DNA from: a virus
Virus record (IMG/VR): IMGVR_UViG_3300017991_000280
Span: 1-32,795 of that record
Reading direction: 5' to 3' (one strand)
Length of the DNA stretch: 32,795 nt
Both the position numbers and the translations under genes were made by a program. The notes under the pieces were generated by a model. It was not told where the DNA came from. It saw only the letters and a program-made list of their open reading frames with translations, and ran no database searches. Shown here piece by piece: positions 2,408 to 27,228 of this stretch. Each line of letters starts with the position of its first letter. Position 1 is the stretch's first letter.

Positions 2408-3979
2408 GTGTACGATCGGGTTCCCCCTCACGACGAGGCGGCCGAGGTCGCGGTACTCGGTTCCCTCCTTCTGGACTATCCGTACGCCTGGCCCATGGTC
2501 GAGGCGACCGGCCTCCGGTCCTCGGACTTCTACCGGGGCGCTCACCAGGAGGTCTTCCGGCGCCTCTCGTTCTGGGCCTGGGCGGACCGCCAGCCGGACG
2601 TCGTCACCCTTCGGGATTCGCTCCTGGCCGGTGGCAAGGTCGGCGACGAGGACGAGATCCTTCACCTTCTGTCGGACCTGATCCAGTCCGTCCCCAGCGC
2701 CGCGAACGCGGACTTCTACGCGCGGATCGTGAAGGAGAAGGCGCTCCGCCGCGGCCTGATCCGATCGGCTCACCTGACCATGGGCCAGGCGTTCGACGAG
2801 AACGCGTCCGTCGGCCAACAGATCCAGTTCGGGATCGAGGAGCTCGAGCAGCTCCGCGACGGCCTCGCCCGCGAGGACCTGAGGACCTTCAACGGGAACC
2901 AGCTCCTCGCGGACCCGCCGGCGCCGCGGGACCTCCTCGTGGGGAAGGGAATCCTCGCCCTGGGCGAGTGGATCCTGTTCCTCGGCGAGCCGAAGGCGGG
3001 GAAGTCGGCGCTCGCCCTCGACCTGGCCGCGGAGCTCGTCCGCGACGTCGACCTCGAGAACGAGTGGGCCGGCTTCTCGATCTTCGGCGGCCGGCGCGTC
3101 CTGTACCTGGTCGGCGAGGGCGGCCGCCGGTCGATGTTCGCCCGCTGGCAGAAACGATCCCAGGGCCTCGGCGTCCACGAGCGGGCGCGGTTCCTGACCT
3201 GGTTCCCCGACCCTCAGCTCATGGACATAACCCAGCCGGAGGAGTACGCCCGGCTCGAGCGGTTCATCCAGGAGAACGGCGTCGAGGTCCTCATCGTCGA
3301 CCCGCTCGCGCACTTCCACAACGGCGAGGAGAACGACGCCGGCGACATGAAGCGCGTCGCCGGCCAGTTCATCCGGCTTCAGACGACGACCGGGTGCGCG
3401 TCGATCGTCGTCCACCATACCCGGAAGGCCCAGGTCACGAGCCGGAAGGGCTCGCCGCTCGAGGGCCGCGGCTCGACGGCCCTGTACGGCGCCAGCGACG
3501 GCGCGGTCATGTTCGAGTTCGAGGGCGACCAGGACGACCCCGAGCGCCGCATGACGTTCTCACTCCGGCACGCCGAGGAGTACGTGGATCCTCAGATCGT
3601 CACCCTGAACCGCGTCCTCCTCCGCTTCGAGCTCCAGGTTCGCGGCCCGGGCCGGCCTCAGCGCGACGGCCTGGACGCCGACGACTTCCTGGACTGGATC
3701 GCCGGCCACGGGAAGCCCGTCACCCTGAAGGACGCCGCGGTGGAGTCCGGGATTCCCCTCCGGACGATCGAGCGGTGGAAGAAGGACCTCCTCGAGTCCG
3801 GCCACCTGGCCCGGTTCCGGGTGAGCACGCGGCGCCCGTACGAGTACGGCCTTCCGCACTGGTTCCAGGACTCGAGCGCGACCCAGGCGGACCTCCCCCT
3901 GGACGGTCCGCCAAATACCGATCCGCCAAACGAAGCGGCCTCGCGGGAATGCGCCTCCACAACTCCGGAAGGAGACTGA
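2408..3979 (+). CDS. Replicative DNA helicase: DnaB N-terminal domain fused to RepA-like RecA ATPase
   Basis: 523 residues. It starts at GTG 2408 with GGAGGA 7 bases upstream. Residues 1-150 match the DnaB N-terminal helical domain (PPHDEAAEVAVLGSLLLD, then VPSAANADFYARIVKEKALRR). Residues 175-400 form a RecA/AAA_25-type ATPase: Walker A GEPKAGKS (193-200), Walker B VLIVDP with Asp298, and a VVHHTRKA segment typical of RepA-like hexameric helicases. The C-terminus (about 425-490) carries a helix-turn-helix-like region (ESGIPLRTIERWKKDLLESG) that may bind DNA. The protein would unwind the phage replication fork and may recruit primase, though no primase is visible here. Its 3' end contains two of the iterons listed separately, so coding sequence and candidate origin overlap. 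Confidence 0.88.
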   Translation: MYDRVPPHDEAAEVAVLGSLLLDYPYAWPMVEATGLRSSDFYRGAHQEVFRRLSFWAWADRQPDVVTLRDSLLAGGKVGDEDEILHLLSDLIQSVPSAANADFYARIVKEKALRRGLIRSAHLTMGQAFDENASVGQQIQFGIEELEQLRDGLAREDLRTFNGNQLLADPPAPRDLLVGKGILALGEWILFLGEPKAGKSALALDLAAELVRDVDLENEWAGFSIFGGRRVLYLVGEGGRRSMFARWQKRSQGLGVHERARFLTWFPDPQLMDITQPEEYARLERFIQENGVEVLIVDPLAHFHNGEENDAGDMKRVAGQFIRLQTTTGCASIVVHHTRKAQVTSRKGSPLEGRGSTALYGASDGAVMFEFEGDQDDPERRMTFSLRHAEEYVDPQIVTLNRVLLRFELQVRGPGRPQRDGLDADDFLDWIAGHGKPVTLKDAAVESGIPLRTIERWKKDLLESGHLARFRVSTRRPYEYGLPHWFQDSSATQADLPLDGPPNTDPPNEAASRECASTTPEGD

Positions 3980-4180
3980 CCTTATGCTCCGCCAAATTCG
4001 ACCTCCGCCACGGACCCCTATTTGGCGGACCATGTCCCGCCATGGGGCCTCGGCCCTGGCCGCGGACGGCAATCCCCGCTCGGACCGCGTTCCCCCCCTA
4101 CAGGGGGGAACGACGGTACCCGTTTGGCGGAGCGGGGCTTCGCGGGGATCGCCTTCGTCGGTCCGTCGTCCGCCAATCCC
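3905..4180 (+). repeat. TCCGCCAAA iteron array, candidate replication origin or operator region
   Basis: Five exact copies of a 9-mer occur within about 225 bases: TCCGCCAAA at 3907-3915, 3922-3930 and 3988-3996, and its complement TTTGGCGGA at 4021-4029 and 4123-4131. Two partial copies lie at 4004-4010 (TCCGCCA) and 4169-4176 (TCCGCCAA). The first and fourth are embedded in a 13-base perfect inverted repeat: GGTCCGCCAAATA at 3905-3917 and its complement at 4019-4031. The array begins in the helicase 3' end and fills the otherwise gene-poor stretch 3980-4231 before the RuvC-like gene. Short direct and inverted repeats beside a replicative helicase are the usual layout of an iteron origin; binding sites for a repressor are the alternative. 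Confidence 0.7.
4090..4110 (+). other. Perfect GC hairpin within the iteron region
   Basis: TTCCCCCC (4090-4097) pairs perfectly with GGGGGGAA (4103-4110) across a 5-base loop CTACA. There is no following T tract, so it is not a textbook intrinsic terminator. It lies between two inverted TTTGGCGGA copies and could be part of the origin (an extruded hairpin or primer site) or simply a transcript structure. Confidence 0.45.
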
Positions 4181-4231
4181 TCCGGGGCGGACGCGTACCG
4201 CGACCCCGGCCAGGGCACGGATCGAGACCCC

Positions 4232-4831
4232 ATGACGGCCCGGAAGACGACGCGGAGAAAGCCGACGGCGTCCGACGCCGCACGCGCCCGCGCGCGCGAG
4301 CCGCTCGAGCAGCTCCGCCGGCCGAAGCGGATCTTCGCCCTCGACCTGGGGACGACGAAGGCTCACCCGGTCGGCTGGGCCTTCGCCGTCGGCGACGCCG
4401 TCCAGTCCGGCCAGGTCTCGATCGAGGCCCGCGGGAGGACCTCCCGGCCGCGGCGCTTCGAGTACTTCCGCGACTGGTACCTGGAGCGGCTCGAGGAGCT
4501 CGGCCCGGACATGGTCGCGTACGAGATGCCTCCCCTCGCGAAGGGCGGCCTGCAGGGGCGCCTGGCGCTCCTGGGCCTGGTCGTTCTGATCGAGGAGGCC
4601 TCGAGCCGGTGGGGCCTCGATCCGCTCGCCGCGGCGCCGGCCACGGTGAAGAAGGTCGTCACCGGGAAGGGCGACGCGTCGAAGGAACGGGTTTCCTTCG
4701 AGATCGAGAGGCGCTATCCTGACCAGCTCCCGCTCGAGGGACCCGACCAGGCGGACGCCCTGGCGGTCCTCGAGTGGGCGCGAATCGACGTCCTGGGCCT
4801 GGCGCCCAGGGGAAAGGCTGGCAAGCCATGA
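4232..4831 (+). CDS. RuvC-like Holliday junction resolvase / RNase H-fold endonuclease
   Basis: 199 residues from ATG 4232. Catalytic residues of the RuvC fold can be picked out: Asp38 in IFALDLGTTKA (first strand), Glu98 in MVAYEMPP, and Asp172/Asp175 in the C-terminal GPDQADALAVLEWAR helix. The KKVVTGKGDASKE stretch matches the RuvC pattern before the last helix. Phage RuvC-like enzymes resolve branched recombination and replication intermediates before packaging. The frame is open 70 codons further upstream, but that part runs through the iterons and is Gly/Pro/Arg rich, so I start at 4232. This start lacks a strong SD. The stop overlaps the next ATG (ATGA at 4828). Confidence 0.85.
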   Translation: MTARKTTRRKPTASDAARARAREPLEQLRRPKRIFALDLGTTKAHPVGWAFAVGDAVQSGQVSIEARGRTSRPRRFEYFRDWYLERLEELGPDMVAYEMPPLAKGGLQGRLALLGLVVLIEEASSRWGLDPLAAAPATVKKVVTGKGDASKERVSFEIERRYPDQLPLEGPDQADALAVLEWARIDVLGLAPRGKAGKP

Positions 4832-7567: not shown

Positions 7568-8307
7568 AGCCCTTCCACGAGCGGGACGGCGTCACCCTGT
7601 ACCACGGGGACGCCCTGGCGGTCATGGCCGAGCTCGAGGAGGACTCGATCGGCGTCGTGGCCACGGACCCGCCATACTCGAGCGGCGCGCGCAACGCGGC
7701 CACGGTCCGGAGCCGGCCGGCGCTCCGCCGATCCGACGGCCCGCACGCCCGCTGGTTCGGCTCGGACAACATGACGTCGCACGGCTTCGCCTTCCTGGTC
7801 CGCCTCCTGGCCGTCGAGGCGCGCCGGCTCACCGTCCAGGACGGCCACCTGTTCTCGTTCATCGACTGGCGCCAGTGGCCGGTCCTCGCCGGCGCGATCG
7901 AGGCCGCCGGCTGGTCCCTGTCCGCCTGTCTCGTTTGGGACAAGAAGCACTTCGGCATGGGGAACCGCTTCCGCCAACAGGCGGAGTTCGTCCTTCACGC
8001 CTCGAACGGCGTCGGCGACAACTTCCTCCGCCACGACCTCGGGACCGTCTTCCGGTTCCCGCGGCCGCGCGAGGACCTCGTTCCGACCCAGAAGCCCGAG
8101 GAGCTCGCCGAGCTCCTCCTGTCCGCGGTCCCCGGCGACGTCGTCCTCGACCCCTTCATGGGCTCGGGAACCTGGCTCGCCGCGGCCCGCACGAACGACC
8201 GCCGCGCGATCGGCGTCGAGGCCGACGAGCGGACATGCGAGATTGCGGCGCGACGGCTGGACCAGGGCGTCCTCCCGTTCGGGCCGCGGGAGGAGTGGCC
8301 ACCGTGA
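7564..8307 (+). CDS. DNA adenine/cytosine-N4 methyltransferase, beta-type motif order
   Basis: 247 residues from GTG 7564 (GTGA overlap). The catalytic motif IV DPPY is at residues 35-38 and the SAM-binding motif I DPFMGSGT at 196-203, so the order is catalytic first and SAM-binding last, as in beta-class N6-adenine or N4-cytosine methyltransferases. The segment between (about 60-180) would hold the target-recognition region. No restriction endonuclease lies nearby, so it is an orphan enzyme. Phage orphan methyltransferases commonly protect the genome from host restriction or mark it for packaging or regulation. Target sequence unknown. Confidence 0.87.
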   Translation: MKPFHERDGVTLYHGDALAVMAELEEDSIGVVATDPPYSSGARNAATVRSRPALRRSDGPHARWFGSDNMTSHGFAFLVRLLAVEARRLTVQDGHLFSFIDWRQWPVLAGAIEAAGWSLSACLVWDKKHFGMGNRFRQQAEFVLHASNGVGDNFLRHDLGTVFRFPRPREDLVPTQKPEELAELLLSAVPGDVVLDPFMGSGTWLAAARTNDRRAIGVEADERTCEIAARRLDQGVLPFGPREEWPP

Positions 8308-9131
8308 GTACCGAAGGACGGATCCGAGAGCTGGCGGAGGAGATCCTGGGACTGGTCTCAAGGCGCTTCAGTGTCCGCGCCTCTCTCGTGACGGGCAAGA
8401 GCAGGACCCAGCCGGCCGTCGACGCGCGGTTCGTGTACGCCTGGGTCCTCCGCGAGCTGGGCCTGACCCTCGAGCGGATCGGCGAGATCATGAACCGCCA
8501 CCATTCCTCGGTCCTGGCCGCGGTCCGCAAGGTGAAGGACCGGTACCTGGCGGACCCGTCGGCGAAGACGGACCTCGACGCGATCATGAAGGACGCGCGG
8601 GCGATCGCGGCCGGCTTCGACGTCTCGACGGCGATCCGCCAGGACGCGACGCCGAAGAAGGAGGCCGCGCCGGCGCCCGCGTGCGAGCCGGCCCCGGAGC
8701 CGACGCCAGATCCGGCCCCGGAGAAGCCCAGGCCGCCCCAGGAGCGCCCGAAGGTCCGCCCCTCGATCCGGAAGCCGCGCGAGCGCGGGGACGGCTTCCT
8801 GACGGAGCTCCCGGGCGCGAGGCTCGTCCTCGTGACGACGCCCCAGGTCGTCGAGGTCCTGCAGGGCCTGGTCATGACCGGCCTGTTCGGGCGCGACCTC
8901 GACGAGGCGGCCGAGCGGGTCCTCTGCCGAGGGCTCGAGGAGGTCGCGCACTTCGCGATCAAGCCGAAGCCCGGCGCGTCGCCGCGGCCGTACCATTGCC
9001 GCCTGTGCGATCACCGTTGGCTCGCGGCCTTCTCCGAGCCGCCGGACGCCCTCGTCGAGTACTCGATCGAGTGTCCCGCGTGCGGCCAGTGCGCGGGCGA
9101 GCCCTTCGAGGGGGACGGCGACCCCGCTTGA
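8304..9131 (+). CDS. DnaA domain-IV-like protein with C-terminal zinc ribbon
   Basis: 275 residues from GTG 8304 (GTGA overlap). Residues 10-80 resemble the DnaA origin-binding domain IV: a helix with AVDARFVYAWVLRELGLTLERIGEIM and NRHHSSVLAAVRKV in place of the DnaA signature GRDHSTVLHAxRKI. A Pro/Glu/Lys-rich linker follows (about 115-165). A middle helical region contains VVEVLQGLVMTGLFGRDLDEAAERVL, and a zinc ribbon is formed by Cys232/Cys235 and Cys257/Cys260 with Cys263. The DnaA AAA+ ATPase domain is missing. It may bind phage or host DnaA boxes, acting as an initiator accessory, repressor or transcription regulator. It is the last gene of the early block, just before packaging. Confidence 0.8.
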   Translation: MSTEGRIRELAEEILGLVSRRFSVRASLVTGKSRTQPAVDARFVYAWVLRELGLTLERIGEIMNRHHSSVLAAVRKVKDRYLADPSAKTDLDAIMKDARAIAAGFDVSTAIRQDATPKKEAAPAPACEPAPEPTPDPAPEKPRPPQERPKVRPSIRKPRERGDGFLTELPGARLVLVTTPQVVEVLQGLVMTGLFGRDLDEAAERVLCRGLEEVAHFAIKPKPGASPRPYHCRLCDHRWLAAFSEPPDALVEYSIECPACGQCAGEPFEGDGDPA

Positions 9132-13855: not shown

Positions 13856-15802
13856 ATGGCAAGGAGGCACGTCACCGAGATTCTCCGGACGGGCGACTGG
13901 ACCGGCCAGCGCGCGTTCGTGATCGGCGGAGGGCCGTCCCTCCGCGGCTTCAAGTGGGAACGCCTCGCCGGCGAACGCGTCGTCGGCGTGAACCGCGCCT
14001 TCGAGTGTCCCCACGTCGACGTCCTGTTCACGATGGATTCGCGGTTCCTGACCTGGTACCGCCACAAGCTCGGAACGTGCCAGGCGCCGCTCGTCTTCCA
14101 CCACGACCACGGCCAGGAGCTCGAGGACCGCCTCCTGACGGATCTCGGCCGCGACGTCTTCATGGTCGACCGCCTCGACGAGCACGACCTGGGCGAGGAC
14201 CTCGCGCGAGGCCTCGGCCACGGAGCGAACAGCGGATACGGCGCCGTCGCCCTCGCCTGGGTCCTCGGCGCGCGGCCGATCTATCTCCTCGGCTTCGACC
14301 TCACGCCGACGGAGAAGGGCCTGCAGGAATGGTGGCACAACGGGTACCCGGAGAACAACGGGACCGCGTACCCGCGGTTCCGGCGCGCCTTCGAGGAGCT
14401 CGCGCGCAAGGTCCCCGAGGGCTCGATCCTGAACGCCTCGCCGACGAGCTCGATCCGGGGCTTCCCGAAGGTCCTCACCTGGCCGAACGCGACCCAGGCC
14501 TGGCCCCTGTTCGTGACCTTCGCGACCGACGAGTACTATCGGCGCCAGGCGGACCGCCTCCGCCGTTCGATCGACGAGCTCGGCCTGGATCTCGACGTCG
14601 TCCAGGTCGCCGACCGCGGGTCCTGGGTCGCGAACTGCGGAGCGAAGCCGGAGGTGATCCTCGGGACGCTCGAGGCGAACCGCGAGCGGAACGTGGTCTT
14701 CCTGGACGCGGACGCCGAGGTCGTCGCCCTCCCGTCTCGGTTCCTCGAGCTCGAGGGCGACGTGGCCGCCCACAGGCGGAGCGGCTCCGAGCTCCTGTCC
14801 GGGACCCTCTTCTTCCGGAACGTCCCGAAGGTCCGCGAACTGGTCCGCCGATGGATCGAGCTCGGCCGCGCCCGGCCGGAGGAGTGGGACCAGAGGACGC
14901 TCGACGTCGCCCTTCGCGAGGCGACCCTCGGGGGCCTCGACTTCGAGGACCTCCCGCCGGCGTACACGTTCATCTTCGACAGCATGGCGCGCCAACACCC
15001 GGACGTCGACCCGGTGATCCTGCATCACCAGGCCTCGCGCGCGGTGAAGGTGGCCGAGAGGGAAGGACGACGAGATGCACTCAGCTCGGGAAGCGGCGAT
15101 CATGGCGGCCCTGTCCACGGTCTCGACCTCGGCGCGATCGCGCCCGCGCCTTCCTCCTCTGCCTCCGCGGGACGGCGTCATCCGGCGGACCCGGGCGAAG
15201 ATCGGCCGGAACGAGCCCTGCCCGTGCGGGTCCGGCAAGAAGTTCAAGCGGTGCCACGGGAGGCCCCGGTGAGGAGCGTCGCCGGCGTCGGGATTCCGCC
15301 TCCGGACGAGTGTCCCATGGACCCCTACTCGACTCACCAGCCGGCGCTCGTTCTCGCGGCCGCCCTGGCGCTCGAGCACGAACCCGAGAGGCCCTGGGTC
15401 GAGCTCGGGTGCGGCTGGTACTCGACGCCGATCCTCGCGGCCATGGGCGGCCCGGAGCGGCTCACCGTGCACTCGGCCGATCGCGACTGGTCCGCGCAGT
15501 TCTCGCGCCTGGTCCAGGTCCGGGACGTCGAGGACTGGACGCGGTTCCGGATGGTCGAGGCGCACGGCCTCGCGGTCCTCGACAATGAGCAGCTCGTGAG
15601 GGACCGCGTGAAGCTCCTCCCGCGGCTCCTGGCGCGCGCGGCCTTCGTCGTCGCGCACGACTGGCGGGAGGACCTCGACGAGTCCGTCCTGGGCGACGCG
15701 CATCGGTTCGTGTACCGCCGGTGCGGCCGGCCCTGGACCCTGATCGCCTCGAGCTCGTTCGCGCCGCTCGAGGACGAGGCCCGGAGGAGGCTCGGCTCAT
15801 GA
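13856..15802 (+). CDS. DUF115-like plus glycosyltransferase, continuing in frame into a SAM methyltransferase
   Basis: 648 residues from ATG 13856, preferred over TTG 13847 because GAGAAGGA is 9 bases upstream. Residues 20-215 resemble DUF115/GT42-type sugar transfer domains: IGGGPSL (23-29), [17 protein letters not shown], then [25 protein letters not shown] from Asn125. Residues 220-400 look like a nucleotide-sugar transferase ([13 protein letters not shown], DxD motif Asp284-Ala-Asp286 in [10 protein letters not shown], later HHQASRA). Residues about 405-470 are low-complexity Ser/Pro/Arg, and this stretch overlaps a SEC-C gene in another frame. From about 472 a class I methyltransferase follows ([14 protein letters not shown] near 515). 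No stop codon separates the parts, so the ORF may be a natural fusion, or a stop may have been lost. It would modify surface glycans of host or virion. Confidence 0.75.
15075..15272 (+). CDS. SEC-C motif zinc-binding protein, overlapping gene
   Basis: 65 residues from ATG 15075 with SD GGGAAGGA. The C-terminus is a textbook SEC-C motif ([18 protein letters not shown]), the zinc-binding tail found in SecA and many small proteins. It lies wholly inside the 13856-15802 ORF but in another frame. By my count only about 8 of 65 codons here end in A/T, against about 21 of 65 in the enclosing frame, so this frame is the better coding frame of the two. The TGA overlaps GTG 15269 (GTGA), the same junction style as other adjacent genes here. 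Confidence 0.7.
15269..15802 (+). CDS. Alternative reading: separate class I methyltransferase
   Basis: 177 residues if translation starts at GTG 15269, coupled to the SEC-C stop. Motif [14 protein letters not shown] binds [14 protein letters not shown] and [14 protein letters not shown] follow in the positions of the later motifs. It is in frame with the upstream glycosyltransferase ORF, so it may exist only as the tail of that protein, only on its own, or as both. The target is unknown; neighbours suggest a sugar or other small surface molecule. Confidence 0.5.
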
Positions 15803-18583: not shown

Positions 18584-21468
18584 AGTTCGCAACCCTCCAG
18601 AACCAGGTCCGCGCGCGCCTCCTGATCCAGAAGGCCGACCAGCTCGCGCGCGTCGACGCCGGCGTGAAGCGGGTCGGCGCGATCGCGGTCCGCTGGTACG
18701 CCGAGCAGCTCCGGCCGCTCGTCGGCTGGGCGCGCGGCCGCGACCAGGTCCACGTCGCGCGCCGCGTCGCCGAGGTCCTCGGCGAGTACTGGTCCCAGGT
18801 CGACGAGGCGCTCGAGGACCTCCTGGCCGATCACGTCCGCTGGTCCTGGGATCAGGGGTTCCAGGTCTTCGTCGACACGCTTCCGCGCGTGTACTGGCTG
18901 TACCTCGCGAACCTCCGCGGCGTCCCCGTCCGGGAGGCGGTGGACTACTCCGGCGCCGGCGAGCTGCAAGTAGTCCAGGACCTCTTCCGCCCGCCGACGC
19001 TCCCGGAGGTCCGCCGGCTCATGTTCAAGCCGCCCGCCCAGGCGCCCGACGGCCTGAGCTGGCGCGAACGGATCGACCGGTACTCGAGGCTCACGACGGC
19101 GCCGTACGAGGTCGCCGACAAGATCCGAAACGGCCTCATGAAGGGGCGCAACCCGAACGACGTCGCCGAGGGCCTCCTCGACTTCGTCCAGGGGAACCAG
19201 GCGGCCGCGACGAGGATCGCCCGCGGGGAGATGCTCCGGATCGGTCAGGACGGCCTCCGCGAACAGTGGAGTCAGTTCGACGACGTGATCGACGGGTACG
19301 AGATCCGCGCGACGTTCGACGAGCGGACGCGGCCCCACCACCGGACGCGACACGGCGACCTGTACCTGAACCCGAAGCCGGACGGGTCCCTCCCGGAGGG
19401 CGCGAAGGGGACGCCCGACGAGCGGCCCATGGTCCCGGACGAGTTCAACTGCCGGTGTTACGAGTCGCCCGTCCTGAAGGAGCTCCCGGGCGTCTTCGAG
19501 GACGTCGTGAAGGGCGAGCGGACCGTGGCCACGGTCGACGGGAACCAGGACGACCCGGTGACGATGTCCCGCTGGTTCGACGGCCAGGAGCCCGGCCGGA
19601 AGAAGCGGATCCTCGGGCCGCGCCGGTACCACGAGATCGAGAAGAACCTGGGCCGCGCCGGGTACGGTCAGAACGTGACCTGGGCGGACTCCGTCGACGT
19701 GAAGACGGGGAAGTTCGTCCCCGTGCGCGAGCTCGCCGGCGAGCCGATCCCGTCCACCGTCGCGCGCCGCATGGGGAACACGATCGCCTTCGAGAAGCGG
19801 GCCGCGGCGCTCACGGCGGAGCGGCCGGAGCTGTTCCCAGGCGTGAAGCTCGGGGCCGTCGCGCCTCCCCTCCCGCCGGAGCCTCCGCCCGGACCGACGG
19901 ATCCGCCTCCTCCGCCAGGTCCTCCGCCCGCGGGCCTCACGCGCGCCCAGGCCCAGGCGCTCGAGGACTGGCAGAACGGCGGCCACGTCCGGACGCGTGA
20001 CTACTACCGCGAGACCGGGAACAAGGCCTGGACGCACACGACCTCGAAGGCGGAGGTCGGCCGCGAGATCCGGAAGATCGACCGCGGCCTGGCGAAGCTC
20101 CCGAAGGCCACGACCCCGAAGGGCCAGGCGAAGACCCTCTTCCGCGGCCTGAAGGACGTCCGCGACGAGGACCTGCACCGGCTCCTCCAGGCCGACGTCC
20201 TCGACTTCGACAACTATCAGGCCGCGACCCGCTCGAAGAAGACGGCGGAGGCCTTCGCGAACGGCGCCGCCGGCTCGGATAACGTCCTCCTCCGGATGAA
20301 GTCCGCGAACGGCCGCGACCTCTCGGTCCTGGGCGGCCGCGCCGCGCGCGAGAAGACGGTTCTCTTCGAACGGGGCCGGCGGTGGAAGGTCGTCAAGCGC
20401 GCGTCCCGCGTGACCGACGCCGGCGGCCGCCTGCACGAGCTCTGGCTCGAGGAGCTCCCCCCGTCGAAGGACTCGCCGCTGGGGACCGGTGGCGTCGCGC
20501 CGCGGCGCCGCTTGTGGAAGCCGCCCCAGGTCAAGGTCCCGCCGAAGCCGAAGCTCACGAAGCCGGCCTTCGACGTCGACCCGGAGGTGGCGATCGCGAA
20601 CGCGAAGCGCGAGCTCCGCGAGCTGGGCCTGACGCCGGCGGAGCTCAAGACCGGCCAGGTCGGCGGCCGGCCGGCGCATGAGGTCTTCTGGCAACGGCTC
20701 CGCGAGGCCAACGGGACGCACGAGACGAAGGCCGGCGTCCGCGGCGGGATCATGGGCCAGCGGAAGAAGATCCTCGCCGCGCACGACCGCGCGATCAAGC
20801 GGATCGAGAAGGAGGTCCGGACGATCGAGGCGATCCTTCCGGACCGCGGGACGGCCGCCTGGGACGAGCTGGCGAAGACGACGCCGTACACGCCGGTCTA
20901 TTCCGCCTCGCCGGCCCAGCTCGAGTACAAGGGCCTCCTGAAGCGGGAGAAGTGGCTACGGCGCCTCCGGGTGAAGCGGGAGGCGCAAGCCTACTGGTTC
21001 GAGCAGTTCGCCGAGGTCGCGGACGAGTCCCTCGTGCAGGACCCGCTCCTGGGCGAGGTCCAGTGGAAGATCGGAAGCCGCCAGCGCGTGGCCGCGTACC
21101 AGTGGCAGAACGAGATCAAGTGCTGGCGCGTCGCCGAGGAGGACCTGAGCACGTACGCCCACGAGTTCGGGCACCACGTCGAGTACCGGAACCAGCGCGT
21201 CCAGGACCGCCTCGTCCGCTGGCGCCGCGAGCGGTCCGGCGGTCTCCCCATGAAGTCCGTCTATCCGGGCAACGCGAGCTCGAACGAGGTCGGATGGCCG
21301 GACCCCTGGTACGTCGGGTACTGCGGCCGCGTGTACGCCGGCCGCAACTCGACCGAAATCCTCAGCATGGGAATGCAGTTCACGACCTCGGCCGAGGAAC
21401 TCGCCGACGTCGCCGGGAAGGACTTCGATCACGTGGCTATGATCTGGGCGATCCTGAGGGGATACTGA
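18580..21468 (+). CDS. MuF-type minor head protein with ADP-ribosyltransferase-like and metallopeptidase-like domains
   Basis: 962 residues from GTG 18580 (GTGA overlap). Residues 1-300 form a minor head/MuF domain ending in FDERTRPHHRTRHG and EFNCRCYES (Cys291/Cys293), the usual end of SPP1 gp7/Mu F-like domains. A proline-rich linker is at 428-453. Residues about 455-640 resemble an ADP-ribosyltransferase exoenzyme: LFRGL with Arg522, YQAATRSKKTAEAFA (546-560) in place of the STS motif, and REKTVLFERG where the catalytic ExE is expected (Glu591-Lys-Thr593). These substitutions suggest weak or lost activity. Residues about 640-962 contain AHEFGHHVEYR (His861, Glu862, His865) and a later Glu926 in STEILSMG, a zinc metallopeptidase-like arrangement. 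Such MuF proteins can be injected with DNA and carry C-terminal effectors. Confidence 0.85.
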   Translation: MKFATLQNQVRARLLIQKADQLARVDAGVKRVGAIAVRWYAEQLRPLVGWARGRDQVHVARRVAEVLGEYWSQVDEALEDLLADHVRWSWDQGFQVFVDTLPRVYWLYLANLRGVPVREAVDYSGAGELQVVQDLFRPPTLPEVRRLMFKPPAQAPDGLSWRERIDRYSRLTTAPYEVADKIRNGLMKGRNPNDVAEGLLDFVQGNQAAATRIARGEMLRIGQDGLREQWSQFDDVIDGYEIRATFDERTRPHHRTRHGDLYLNPKPDGSLPEGAKGTPDERPMVPDEFNCRCYESPVLKELPGVFEDVVKGERTVATVDGNQDDPVTMSRWFDGQEPGRKKRILGPRRYHEIEKNLGRAGYGQNVTWADSVDVKTGKFVPVRELAGEPIPSTVARRMGNTIAFEKRAAALTAERPELFPGVKLGAVAPPLPPEPPPGPTDPPPPPGPPPAGLTRAQAQALEDWQNGGHVRTRDYYRETGNKAWTHTTSKAEVGREIRKIDRGLAKLPKATTPKGQAKTLFRGLKDVRDEDLHRLLQADVLDFDNYQAATRSKKTAEAFANGAAGSDNVLLRMKSANGRDLSVLGGRAAREKTVLFERGRRWKVVKRASRVTDAGGRLHELWLEELPPSKDSPLGTGGVAPRRRLWKPPQVKVPPKPKLTKPAFDVDPEVAIANAKRELRELGLTPAELKTGQVGGRPAHEVFWQRLREANGTHETKAGVRGGIMGQRKKILAAHDRAIKRIEKEVRTIEAILPDRGTAAWDELAKTTPYTPVYSASPAQLEYKGLLKREKWLRRLRVKREAQAYWFEQFAEVADESLVQDPLLGEVQWKIGSRQRVAAYQWQNEIKCWRVAEEDLSTYAHEFGHHVEYRNQRVQDRLVRWRRERSGGLPMKSVYPGNASSNEVGWPDPWYVGYCGRVYAGRNSTEILSMGMQFTTSAEELADVAGKDFDHVAMIWAILRGY

Positions 21469-25236: not shown

Positions 25237-27228
25237 ATGGCGATCCAAACCGTCGAGATCGTCGCGCCGACGAATCTCTACCACGAGCCGCAGTACCACC
25301 CTGGCCGCTGCATCTGCCGAGGCACGGACGCCAGGATTCACGTCGTCTATACGGACGACTCCGGCCAGGACCTTCAGTACGTGTACTCGGACGACGACGG
25401 CGCCACATGGTCCTCGCCTGAGCTCATCTCCGGGTCCAGTGCGTACTCCTGCCGGAGCTTCGCGATCTGCGTTGATCCCAATGACGAGCCGGTCGTCACG
25501 TATTGCTACTACGAGGTCACGGCCGTTCGCGTGAAGCGCCGCGAGTCCGGTTCCTGGTCGGCCGACAAGGCTGGCCACAACTTCACGAAGGTTGCGAACA
25601 CGAACGCGGCCCTCGCCGTCCTCTGGGATCACGTGAACGACGTCTGCCACGTCTTCTGCGGCTGGCGTTCGGGATCGACCGGCACGCTTTACCACAACTG
25701 GAGCGACGACGACTTCGCGACCTGGGAAGGCTCGCCTGATTCGATCTACAGCGAGACGCGAAACGGGAATATCGACGAGGACCGCCAGTACTCGGTCTGC
25801 GTGAGCGCCGACGGGAACGTGCACCTCGCGATCTTCCGTGACGACGGCTCGGACATGAAGCTCTCGTACCGCAAGTGGACCTCGTCGACGACGACCTGGG
25901 GAAGCTGGGAAGACCTCGAGACCGGAATCAGTGCGAGCTACGTCTTCGGGTACGCGGGGATCTGCACTGACACGAGCTCGATTCCCAGGATCGTGGCCTC
26001 AATCCCTCACTCTGGCTACTCGTACAGGGCGAATATCGCCTACTACAGCCGTGAAGGTGGAAGCTGGTCTTCGGTCGAGTGGTTCACGCCTCAATCGAGC
26101 GTGGACTACTCATTCACGCTTCCCGCGATCGACGACGACAATCAGCTCTGGCTCCTTCGCGGACGGCACGAGTCCTCGGTCACGACGTTCTACATTCAGT
26201 ACCGGACCGGCGCTTCGACTTGGGATGTGACTTCATTCACCGTGCCTGGTTGGGTCCATGGACTTCTTTGGGCCGGATCGACGCCGTACGGCCGATGCGC
26301 GAGCGGCTACTACACGACGTACGTCGACACGACCGGCACGGATTCACTTGATCTCAGGTACGACGACGCGACGGTCTTCGGCGAGGACTCCGGCGCAGTC
26401 CCTGTCAGTGCGAGTGACGGGATCACGTTCGCTGAATTGGCCGAGCGGTACTCGGTCGCCGCGGCCCAGGCTGAGGGTGTCGAATTCTCTGAATCCGCGT
26501 CCGAGGTCGCCGAGCTGAACGTGGGCACGCCGATCGAGGGGATCACCTTCGCCGAGTACGCCGGCGTGATCCTGTCCGTCGAGGCCGCCGACGCGATCGA
26601 GTTCGGCGAGCTGGCCTCGCGCGCGTACGCGGCCGAAGCCGCTGACGGAATCGAATTCGGCGAGGACGCGCGACGCCTGAACTTCGCAAAAGAGGGGATC
26701 GAGTTCGGCGAGCTGGCCTCGGCCGTCGTCGTGATCCAGGTCGAGGCCTCGGACGGGATCACCTTCGAGGAGGGCGCGGCTCACCTTCCGCTCGAGGGAT
26801 GCGAGACGGAGTACGAGCCCTCGCCGGCGATCCAGGCGGACCCGAACGCCCTCACGAAGACGTTCCTCCTCGGACCCTGGGCGACGCTCGCGAACGTGAT
26901 CCAGCTCCCGCGGCCGGAGTACGGCGACGTCCGCCGGAACCGCGTCCAGGTCATAACGCACCGGACCCGCGGAGGGGCGCTCAGGGCGTACAAGAGGACG
27001 CCCACCTATCGGTCCCTGGTCCTCGTCTGGACGGGCCTCTCGAGGCGGAAGCTGCTCGAGCTCGAGGCCTTCCTGGAGGCGACCGCGGCCGAGGACGTCC
27101 GCTTCATCGACCACGAGGGGAGGACCTGGCGCGGGAAGGTCCTGAACACGACGATCGACCTCGTCACCGAAGGGCCAGACGTCGGCGAGGCCGCGATCGA
27201 GTTCGAAGGGGTTACGGTGAGCTCATGA
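25237..27228 (+). CDS. Modular adhesin: beta-propeller, repeat stalk, phage structural C-terminal domain
   Basis: 663 residues from ATG 25237. Residues 1-380 look like a sialidase/BNR-type beta-propeller, with Asp-box-like SDDDGATW (from about 51) and WSDDDFATW (about 155), and many Trp/Tyr/Asp/Ser strands. Residues 394-514 carry seven 9-residue repeats of form [D/E]-G/A-[I/V]-x-F-x-E-x-A spaced by about 16-21. The last 125 residues (NRVQVITHRTRGGALRAY, DHEGRTWRGKV) resemble a phage structural domain that lies near connector genes. Codon usage in the propeller is much less G/C-ended than in neighbours. It would bind a host glycan. It lies inside the head-connector region, unusual for tail fibres. 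Confidence 0.75.
   Translation: MAIQTVEIVAPTNLYHEPQYHPGRCICRGTDARIHVVYTDDSGQDLQYVYSDDDGATWSSPELISGSSAYSCRSFAICVDPNDEPVVTYCYYEVTAVRVKRRESGSWSADKAGHNFTKVANTNAALAVLWDHVNDVCHVFCGWRSGSTGTLYHNWSDDDFATWEGSPDSIYSETRNGNIDEDRQYSVCVSADGNVHLAIFRDDGSDMKLSYRKWTSSTTTWGSWEDLETGISASYVFGYAGICTDTSSIPRIVASIPHSGYSYRANIAYYSREGGSWSSVEWFTPQSSVDYSFTLPAIDDDNQLWLLRGRHESSVTTFYIQYRTGASTWDVTSFTVPGWVHGLLWAGSTPYGRCASGYYTTYVDTTGTDSLDLRYDDATVFGEDSGAVPVSASDGITFAELAERYSVAAAQAEGVEFSESASEVAELNVGTPIEGITFAEYAGVILSVEAADAIEFGELASRAYAAEAADGIEFGEDARRLNFAKEGIEFGELASAVVVIQVEASDGITFEEGAAHLPLEGCETEYEPSPAIQADPNALTKTFLLGPWATLANVIQLPRPEYGDVRRNRVQVITHRTRGGALRAYKRTPTYRSLVLVWTGLSRRKLLELEAFLEATAAEDVRFIDHEGRTWRGKVLNTTIDLVTEGPDVGEAAIEFEGVTVSS
26416..26778 (+). 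repeat. Seven-unit protein repeat encoding a stalk
   Basis: The units are DGITFAELA, EGVEFSESA, EGITFAEYA, DAIEFGELA, DGIEFGEDA, EGIEFGELA and DGITFEEGA. Spacers of 7-12 residues separate them, giving a period of about 16-21 residues. The DNA is not exactly repeated, so the repeats are selected at protein level. A shaft or beta-prism stalk between propeller and C-terminal anchor is likely. Confidence 0.8.

Follow-up and report, generated by a model that had tools for sequence, protein, structure and literature searches.

Several well-described replication systems combine short repeats or hairpins with a neighbouring replication gene. In P4 alpha (ori and crr) and lambda O (iterons inside gene O), the replication protein uses a DNA-binding domain of its own on short iterons that lie in its gene or close by. 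To our knowledge the CCCCTA..GGGG palindrome discussed below belongs to neither system, and among temperate phages whose helicase is of the PrimPol- or TOPRIM-RepA kind, most have no mapped origin. In the plasmid RSF1010, the iterons are bound by RepC, unwinding is the work of RepA, and RepB' starts primers at hairpins (PMC4234260). The IncQ plasmid pMS260 carries five iterons that share the core TGTCACG, at a distance of a few hundred bases from GC hairpins. In pRN1 a hairpin origin lies just 3' of the gene for the PrimPol-helicase ORF904, and similar phage cases have been proposed (PMC4234260). The PrimPol of NrS-1 makes a sequence-specific start at TTTGGTTA, suggested as an origin mark (PMC8718748). 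Here we analyse the 32,795-nucleotide virus record IMGVR_UViG_3300017991_000280 of IMG/VR (the whole stretch, positions 1 to 32,795, is called the window), in which positions 3905-4180 are likely to be a viral iteron replication origin at the 3' end of a helicase gene, with iterons that the helicase probably binds and a hairpin that would assist. An earlier note had proposed a candidate origin at this place, and it stands as the best reading. The sequences show a non-random array with a hairpin, and a layout that recurs, with other iteron words, beside the same class of helicase; that the site acts as an origin, that the helicase binds it and what the hairpin does are inferred.

The array is built on the 9-mer TCCGCCAAA, which occurs five times in the 32.8-kb record, always within 3907-4131, where shuffled sequence predicts 0.09 copies and none of 100 shuffles reached at least five. 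Three copies are on the plus strand and two are inverted, and the shortened copies TCCGCCACG (4004) and TCCGCCAAT (4169) bring the array to seven within 270 bp. The 7-mer TCCGCCA is found seven times in 3900-4180, where its frequency in the rest of the window predicts 0.18 per 280 bp (p ~1e-9). The arms GGTCCGCCAAATA and TATTTGGCGGACC pair as a 13-bp perfect inverted repeat. Two copies lie in the final helicase codons and the others in the 252-bp gap that precedes the ATG at 4232. Short repeats cluster at a single place and adjoin a helicase gene, as in iteron origins, and here they overlap its 3' end. The five exact and two partial repeats, the 13-base inverted repeat and the GC hairpin listed in the earlier note are all present, and the count over the whole record that it had proposed places the 9-mer at the array and nowhere else.

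By 7-mer score per tile, TCCGCCA is the best word of the window by a narrow margin (p = 2.9e-10), and the claim therefore rests on how the 9-mer is distributed and on comparison with other loci. Two other words score similarly: CGAGCTC, with ten copies in one 750-bp tile (window 14126-15125, p = 5.3e-10) and possibly a product of codon bias in GC-rich genes, and GGATCAC, with six within 750 bp (window 26251-27125, p = 2e-9). Such scores would suit a repeat that arose by chance or from codon usage in DNA rich in GC, but we find this explanation scarcely credible, given that the 9-mer is exclusive to the array, that its copies lie on both strands and are mostly non-coding, and that arrays recur at the same position by homologous helicases, with strong controls.

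Between the two inverted TCCGCCAAA copies (4021 and 4123) sits the GC hairpin CGTTCCCCCC-CTACA-GGGGGGAACG, with a 10-bp stem. Its folding energy is -17.6 kcal/mol over a 41-nt stretch (z = -5.2), a stability equalled in none of 200 shuffles, and it is the sole CCCCTA..GGGG-type palindrome in the window. A transcription terminator was rejected for lack of a T run after the hairpin, and comparison with RNA elements returned weak matches, far under the Rfam cut-offs. Another possibility is that the repeats are incompatibility or copy-control, partition or operator sites, through which the helicase or a regulator would control the operon, and no origin. Iterons often double as control sites, as is established for iteron plasmids, and the array is located between two same-strand genes. 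However, it follows the helicase gene instead of preceding it, the strong hairpin has no T run, nothing resembling a promoter or a terminator was found in 3700-4400, and dense bidirectional copies around a palindrome are origin-like, which leaves this possibility quite improbable.

The layout at the window is best judged against other helicases of this kind. AAA_25 genes (E <= 1e-24) from 290 and 299 prokaryote genomes gave 139 non-redundant loci, and the most over-represented 7-mer was scored in a region that starts 150 bp ahead of each stop codon and ends 600 bp beyond it, with a threshold of p<1e-7. Sixty of the 139 AAA_25 3' regions hold a significant array, compared with four of 139 regions of equal length taken from within these genes and one of 134 3' ends of other genes. 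The initial 55 loci had given 22 versus 0, and the extension, which includes them, kept the score and the threshold. Stems of at least 9 bp occur in 30 target regions versus seven controls, and CCCCTA..GGGG palindromes in 17 versus one. The repeat words vary by lineage (CGTTCCC, GGGTTCA, GGCGACA, CCGGCAA, GTGAGGA and others). The earlier note had suggested a search for the array beside helicases of related phages: equivalent arrays follow this kind of helicase in many phages and prophages, and no close relative in which to look for the exact array was found.

TCCGCCA arrays themselves recur directly 3' of AAA_25 genes in pattern scans of viral contigs: in L118 and L132, and in L307, L318, L332 and L335, these last four recovered by a scan blind to helicases. 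Pfam identifies PrimPol-AAA_25 fusions in L118, L307, L332 and L335, while L132 has the array beside an NrS-1-type HBD and an AAA_25 protein; several of these contigs also carry a palindrome, such as CCCATCCCCCCTTAAGGGGGATGGG in L332. Contigs L372 and L378 were not counted, their TCCGCCA clusters being more than 600 bp from the helicase end. The majority of tandem-pattern matches lie away from AAA_25 genes, and the pattern alone is therefore inadequate to identify the class. Beside the matches of a triple-TCCGCCA scan of genomes, a weak six-sequence model found no AAA_25 gene, and a palindrome-plus-TGGCGGA scan hit largely unrelated places, L160 excepted. We further note that in L346 and L334 (about 4190-4700), where AAA_25 was not detected, TCCGCCA arrays lie 3'-terminal to a gene whose coding end resembles that of a winged-helix replication protein; arrays of this kind may also be used by other initiators. 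At L159:4700-4800 a ACCCCCCTCTTAGGGGGT palindrome is accompanied by several GTAACGC-like copies that may represent another type of iteron; no AAA_25 gene was detected in this locus.

Cultured phages provide natural experiments on the same layout. The PrimPol-helicases of Rhizobium phages 16-3 and RHph_X2_25 are 73% identical, and their genes are followed by 15 and 16 GTGACA copies, respectively, in dense arrays with a hairpin (L476:4280-4690 for 16-3 and L587:4130-4570). Between the two phages the terminal hairpin changes from ACTCC..GGAGT to ACCCC..GGGGT, one stem pair passing from T:A to C:G by a compensatory change on both sides. Idiomarinaceae phage 1N2-2 and Alteromonas phage PB15, whose primase-helicases are 66% identical, share a common layout in which GGTACA becomes GGTTCA in all ten well-aligned iterons, with the remaining five bases unchanged, in an array alignment where 38% of aligned positions differ overall. 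The exceptions are one poorly aligned copy that is shifted and one TGAACC common to both. A concerted switch of this kind is what would be expected if a single protein reads all copies. Roseobacter phage CRP-821 (L582, around and after 3589) carries GTATAAA ten times where its primase/helicase gene ends (p = 3e-24). Among the sampled cultured phages CRP-821, 1N2-2 and PB15 reach the array threshold, as does, weakly, Hafnia phage TS33.

The helicase of the window suggests how such iterons could be read. Pfam assigns it a DnaB N-terminal domain (residues 6-110) and an RSF1010-RepA-type RecA core, AAA_25 (residues 165-342). Among PDB sequences it matches RSF1010 RepA (E=3.6e-10, residues 168-359) and DnaB N-terminal domains (residues 3-158), and RSF1010 RepA (1nlf) is also its top Foldseek match. 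The predicted C-terminal winged helix comprises helices at 424-434, 440-447 and 451-464 and strands at 468-470 and 479-481, with a predicted local distance difference test score (pLDDT) of about 67-83 for the block, in a model that is mediocre as a whole (mean pLDDT 59). Folded alone from its single sequence, the C-terminal domain gave three helices at low confidence, and the wing was not reproduced. The tail beyond it has pLDDT <50 at residues 489-493 and 495-523. Iterons 1 and 2 start in residues 500 and 505, and the coding overlap is probably cheap for the protein because both fall in this predicted-disordered tail. The earlier note was thus right that two copies are coding, whereas its view that the protein is constrained together with the sites finds little support in such a tail.

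Covariation across array-bearing loci points to the same end of the protein. At 69 loci, iteron similarity follows similarity of the C-terminal region once the effect of the core is removed (partial r 0.18, p<0.001), whereas it does not follow the core once the effect of the C-terminal region is removed (r 0.02, p 0.27). With the N-terminal region included (51 loci), the standardised betas are 0.40 for the C-terminal region (p 0.0015), 0.15 for the N-terminal region (p 0.04) and -0.07 for the core. Trimming 30 C-terminal residues, which may be iteron-coded, gives 0.31 (p 0.01) and 0.20 (p 0.006) for the C- and N-terminal regions; all these statistics ignore phylogeny. We lean towards the C-terminal domain as the reader of the iterons, with the primase region as the alternative.

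That alternative is most developed in an explanation that accepts the origin and takes the repeats as primase priming sites, as for NrS-1 PrimPol, with TTTGGCGGA a variant of its site. TTTGG is common to the window repeat and the NrS-1 site (PMC8718748), TCCGCCA arrays lie mostly 3' of PrimPol-AAA_25 fusions, L132 combines its array with an NrS-1-type HBD, and the primase region carries the N-terminal iteron signal given above. On the other hand, the window repeat TTTGGCGGA does not match the full site and shares only TTTGG with it. No primase was found among the window proteins searched, the helicase bearing a DnaB N-terminal domain instead; iteron similarity is tied more closely to the full C-terminal region than to the primase region; iterons by PrimPol-AAA_25 genes can be without TTTGG (GTGACA in 16-3); and NrS-1 has two sites only (PMC7102993). 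We regard priming sites as unlikely, and prefer an origin whose iterons are probably bound by the C-terminal domain of the helicase itself. In such an origin, several helicase copies, or an assembly containing the helicase, would use the C-terminal winged helix to bind the TCCGCCA iterons, the RepA-type ring would thereby be loaded and the DNA opened, and the GC hairpin, exposed single-stranded, would mark a primase start or the assembly of a complex, like the ssi hairpins of RSF1010.

Besides the narrow 7-mer margin and the N-terminal iteron signal, several observations weigh against this origin. Cumulative GC skew, which the earlier note had proposed as a check, has no turn at the array: its extremes are at 20324 and 32670, and the closest sign change of the skew lies near position 2.5 kb. 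AT-rich unwinding elements near iterons are common in iteron origins, though not universal; none is visible here, and with 72% GC in the intergenic stretch 3980-4231 the site fits the classic AT-rich kind less well. Among the early-gene window proteins searched, in a record that may be a fragment, no primase was recognised. Among the AAA_25 loci, 79 of 139 fall below the threshold, so that the array is not universal, and no surveyed helicase matches the DnaB N-terminal domain of the window protein. Most sampled cultured phages with such helicases have no array at threshold (Courthouse, RW, Mae-JY30, Vibrio 1.076.O, Upyo, Baee and NS-I, together with one Salmonella record and two environmental phages). 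Finally, close relatives of the window helicase or the RuvC-like gene were absent from the viral contigs, similar DNA from the phages searched, and close helicase relatives from three phyla.

The features of the locus are collected in Table 1. Outside it, a Bac_DnaA_C helix-turn-helix protein is encoded at window 8304-9131 (start inferred; E=8.5e-13 in frame 7875-9131); this phage-encoded DnaA C-terminal-domain protein, whose gene lies within a few kb of the array, might serve as initiator instead.

Table 1. Positions of the repeats, hairpin and genes at the candidate origin, in window coordinates.
Feature	Position	Strand	Basis
Replicative helicase, 523 aa	2408..3979	+	Pfam, PDB sequence search, Foldseek
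Predicted winged helix, residues 422-488, candidate iteron binder	3671..3871	+	AlphaFold2
C-terminal tail, predicted disordered, residues about 487-523, codes across iterons 1 and 2	3872..3976	+	
13-bp perfect inverted repeat, left arm	3905..3917	.	
Iteron 1, TCCGCCAAA	3907..3915	+	
Iteron 2, TCCGCCAAA	3922..3930	+	
Iteron 3, TCCGCCAAA	3988..3996	+	
Iteron 4, partial TCCGCCAcg	4004..4010	+	
13-bp perfect inverted repeat, right arm	4019..4031	.	
Iteron 5, TCCGCCAAA, inverted	4021..4029	-	
GC hairpin, CGTTCCCCCC-CTACA-GGGGGGAACG	4088..4112	.	Folding and palindrome scan
Iteron 6, TCCGCCAAA, inverted	4123..4131	-	
Iteron 7, partial TCCGCCAat	4169..4175	+	
RuvC-like Holliday junction resolvase, downstream neighbour, ATG 4232	4232..4831	+	PHROG 159, E=5.3e-18

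Beyond the window, we put at even chances a widespread, unnamed class of self-contained phage and prophage origins. In these a RepA-type (AAA_25) helicase, often primase-fused, would use its C-terminal winged helix to bind a short iteron array where its own gene ends, beside a CCCCTA..GGGG-type hairpin; the hairpin type would recur across lineages, and the iteron word would turn over and switch together in all copies. Our narrow search of the open-access literature, with subscription papers outside its scope, found no description of such a class. With a short bidirectional array at the helicase 3' end and a GC palindrome as signature, sequence alone would reveal the origins of many phages and prophages. 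Because the iterons change in concert, natural variants lend themselves to tests of how initiator and origin recognise each other: 1N2-2 and PB15 differ by one base per iteron, and 16-3, a cultured phage, is a ready bench system.

Among known systems, the oriV of RSF1010 (IncQ) is closest in function, and among solved structures RepA is the nearest relative of the window helicase core. It differs in that its iteron binder, RepC, is a separate protein, whereas neither a RepC-like initiator nor a RepB primase gene was recognised among the early-gene window proteins searched, in a possibly incomplete record with two upstream proteins that have no family match; its iterons are also about 22 bp apart in a single orientation, whereas the window copies are 9 bp long and run in both. 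ORF904 of pRN1 (PrimPol-helicase-winged helix) has a Superfamily 3 helicase and one 100-bp stem-loop, with no short iteron array. P4 alpha likewise has a Superfamily 3 helicase, and lambda O is not a helicase. NrS-1 is similar in that related domains adjoin the TCCGCCA array in L132, but it has two genome sites and no array, and no PrimPol with HBD was found among the window proteins searched, from a possibly incomplete record. The AAA_25-linked class appears to be undescribed in the open-access papers searched, and the origin of the window itself appears to be a variant of known iteron origins.
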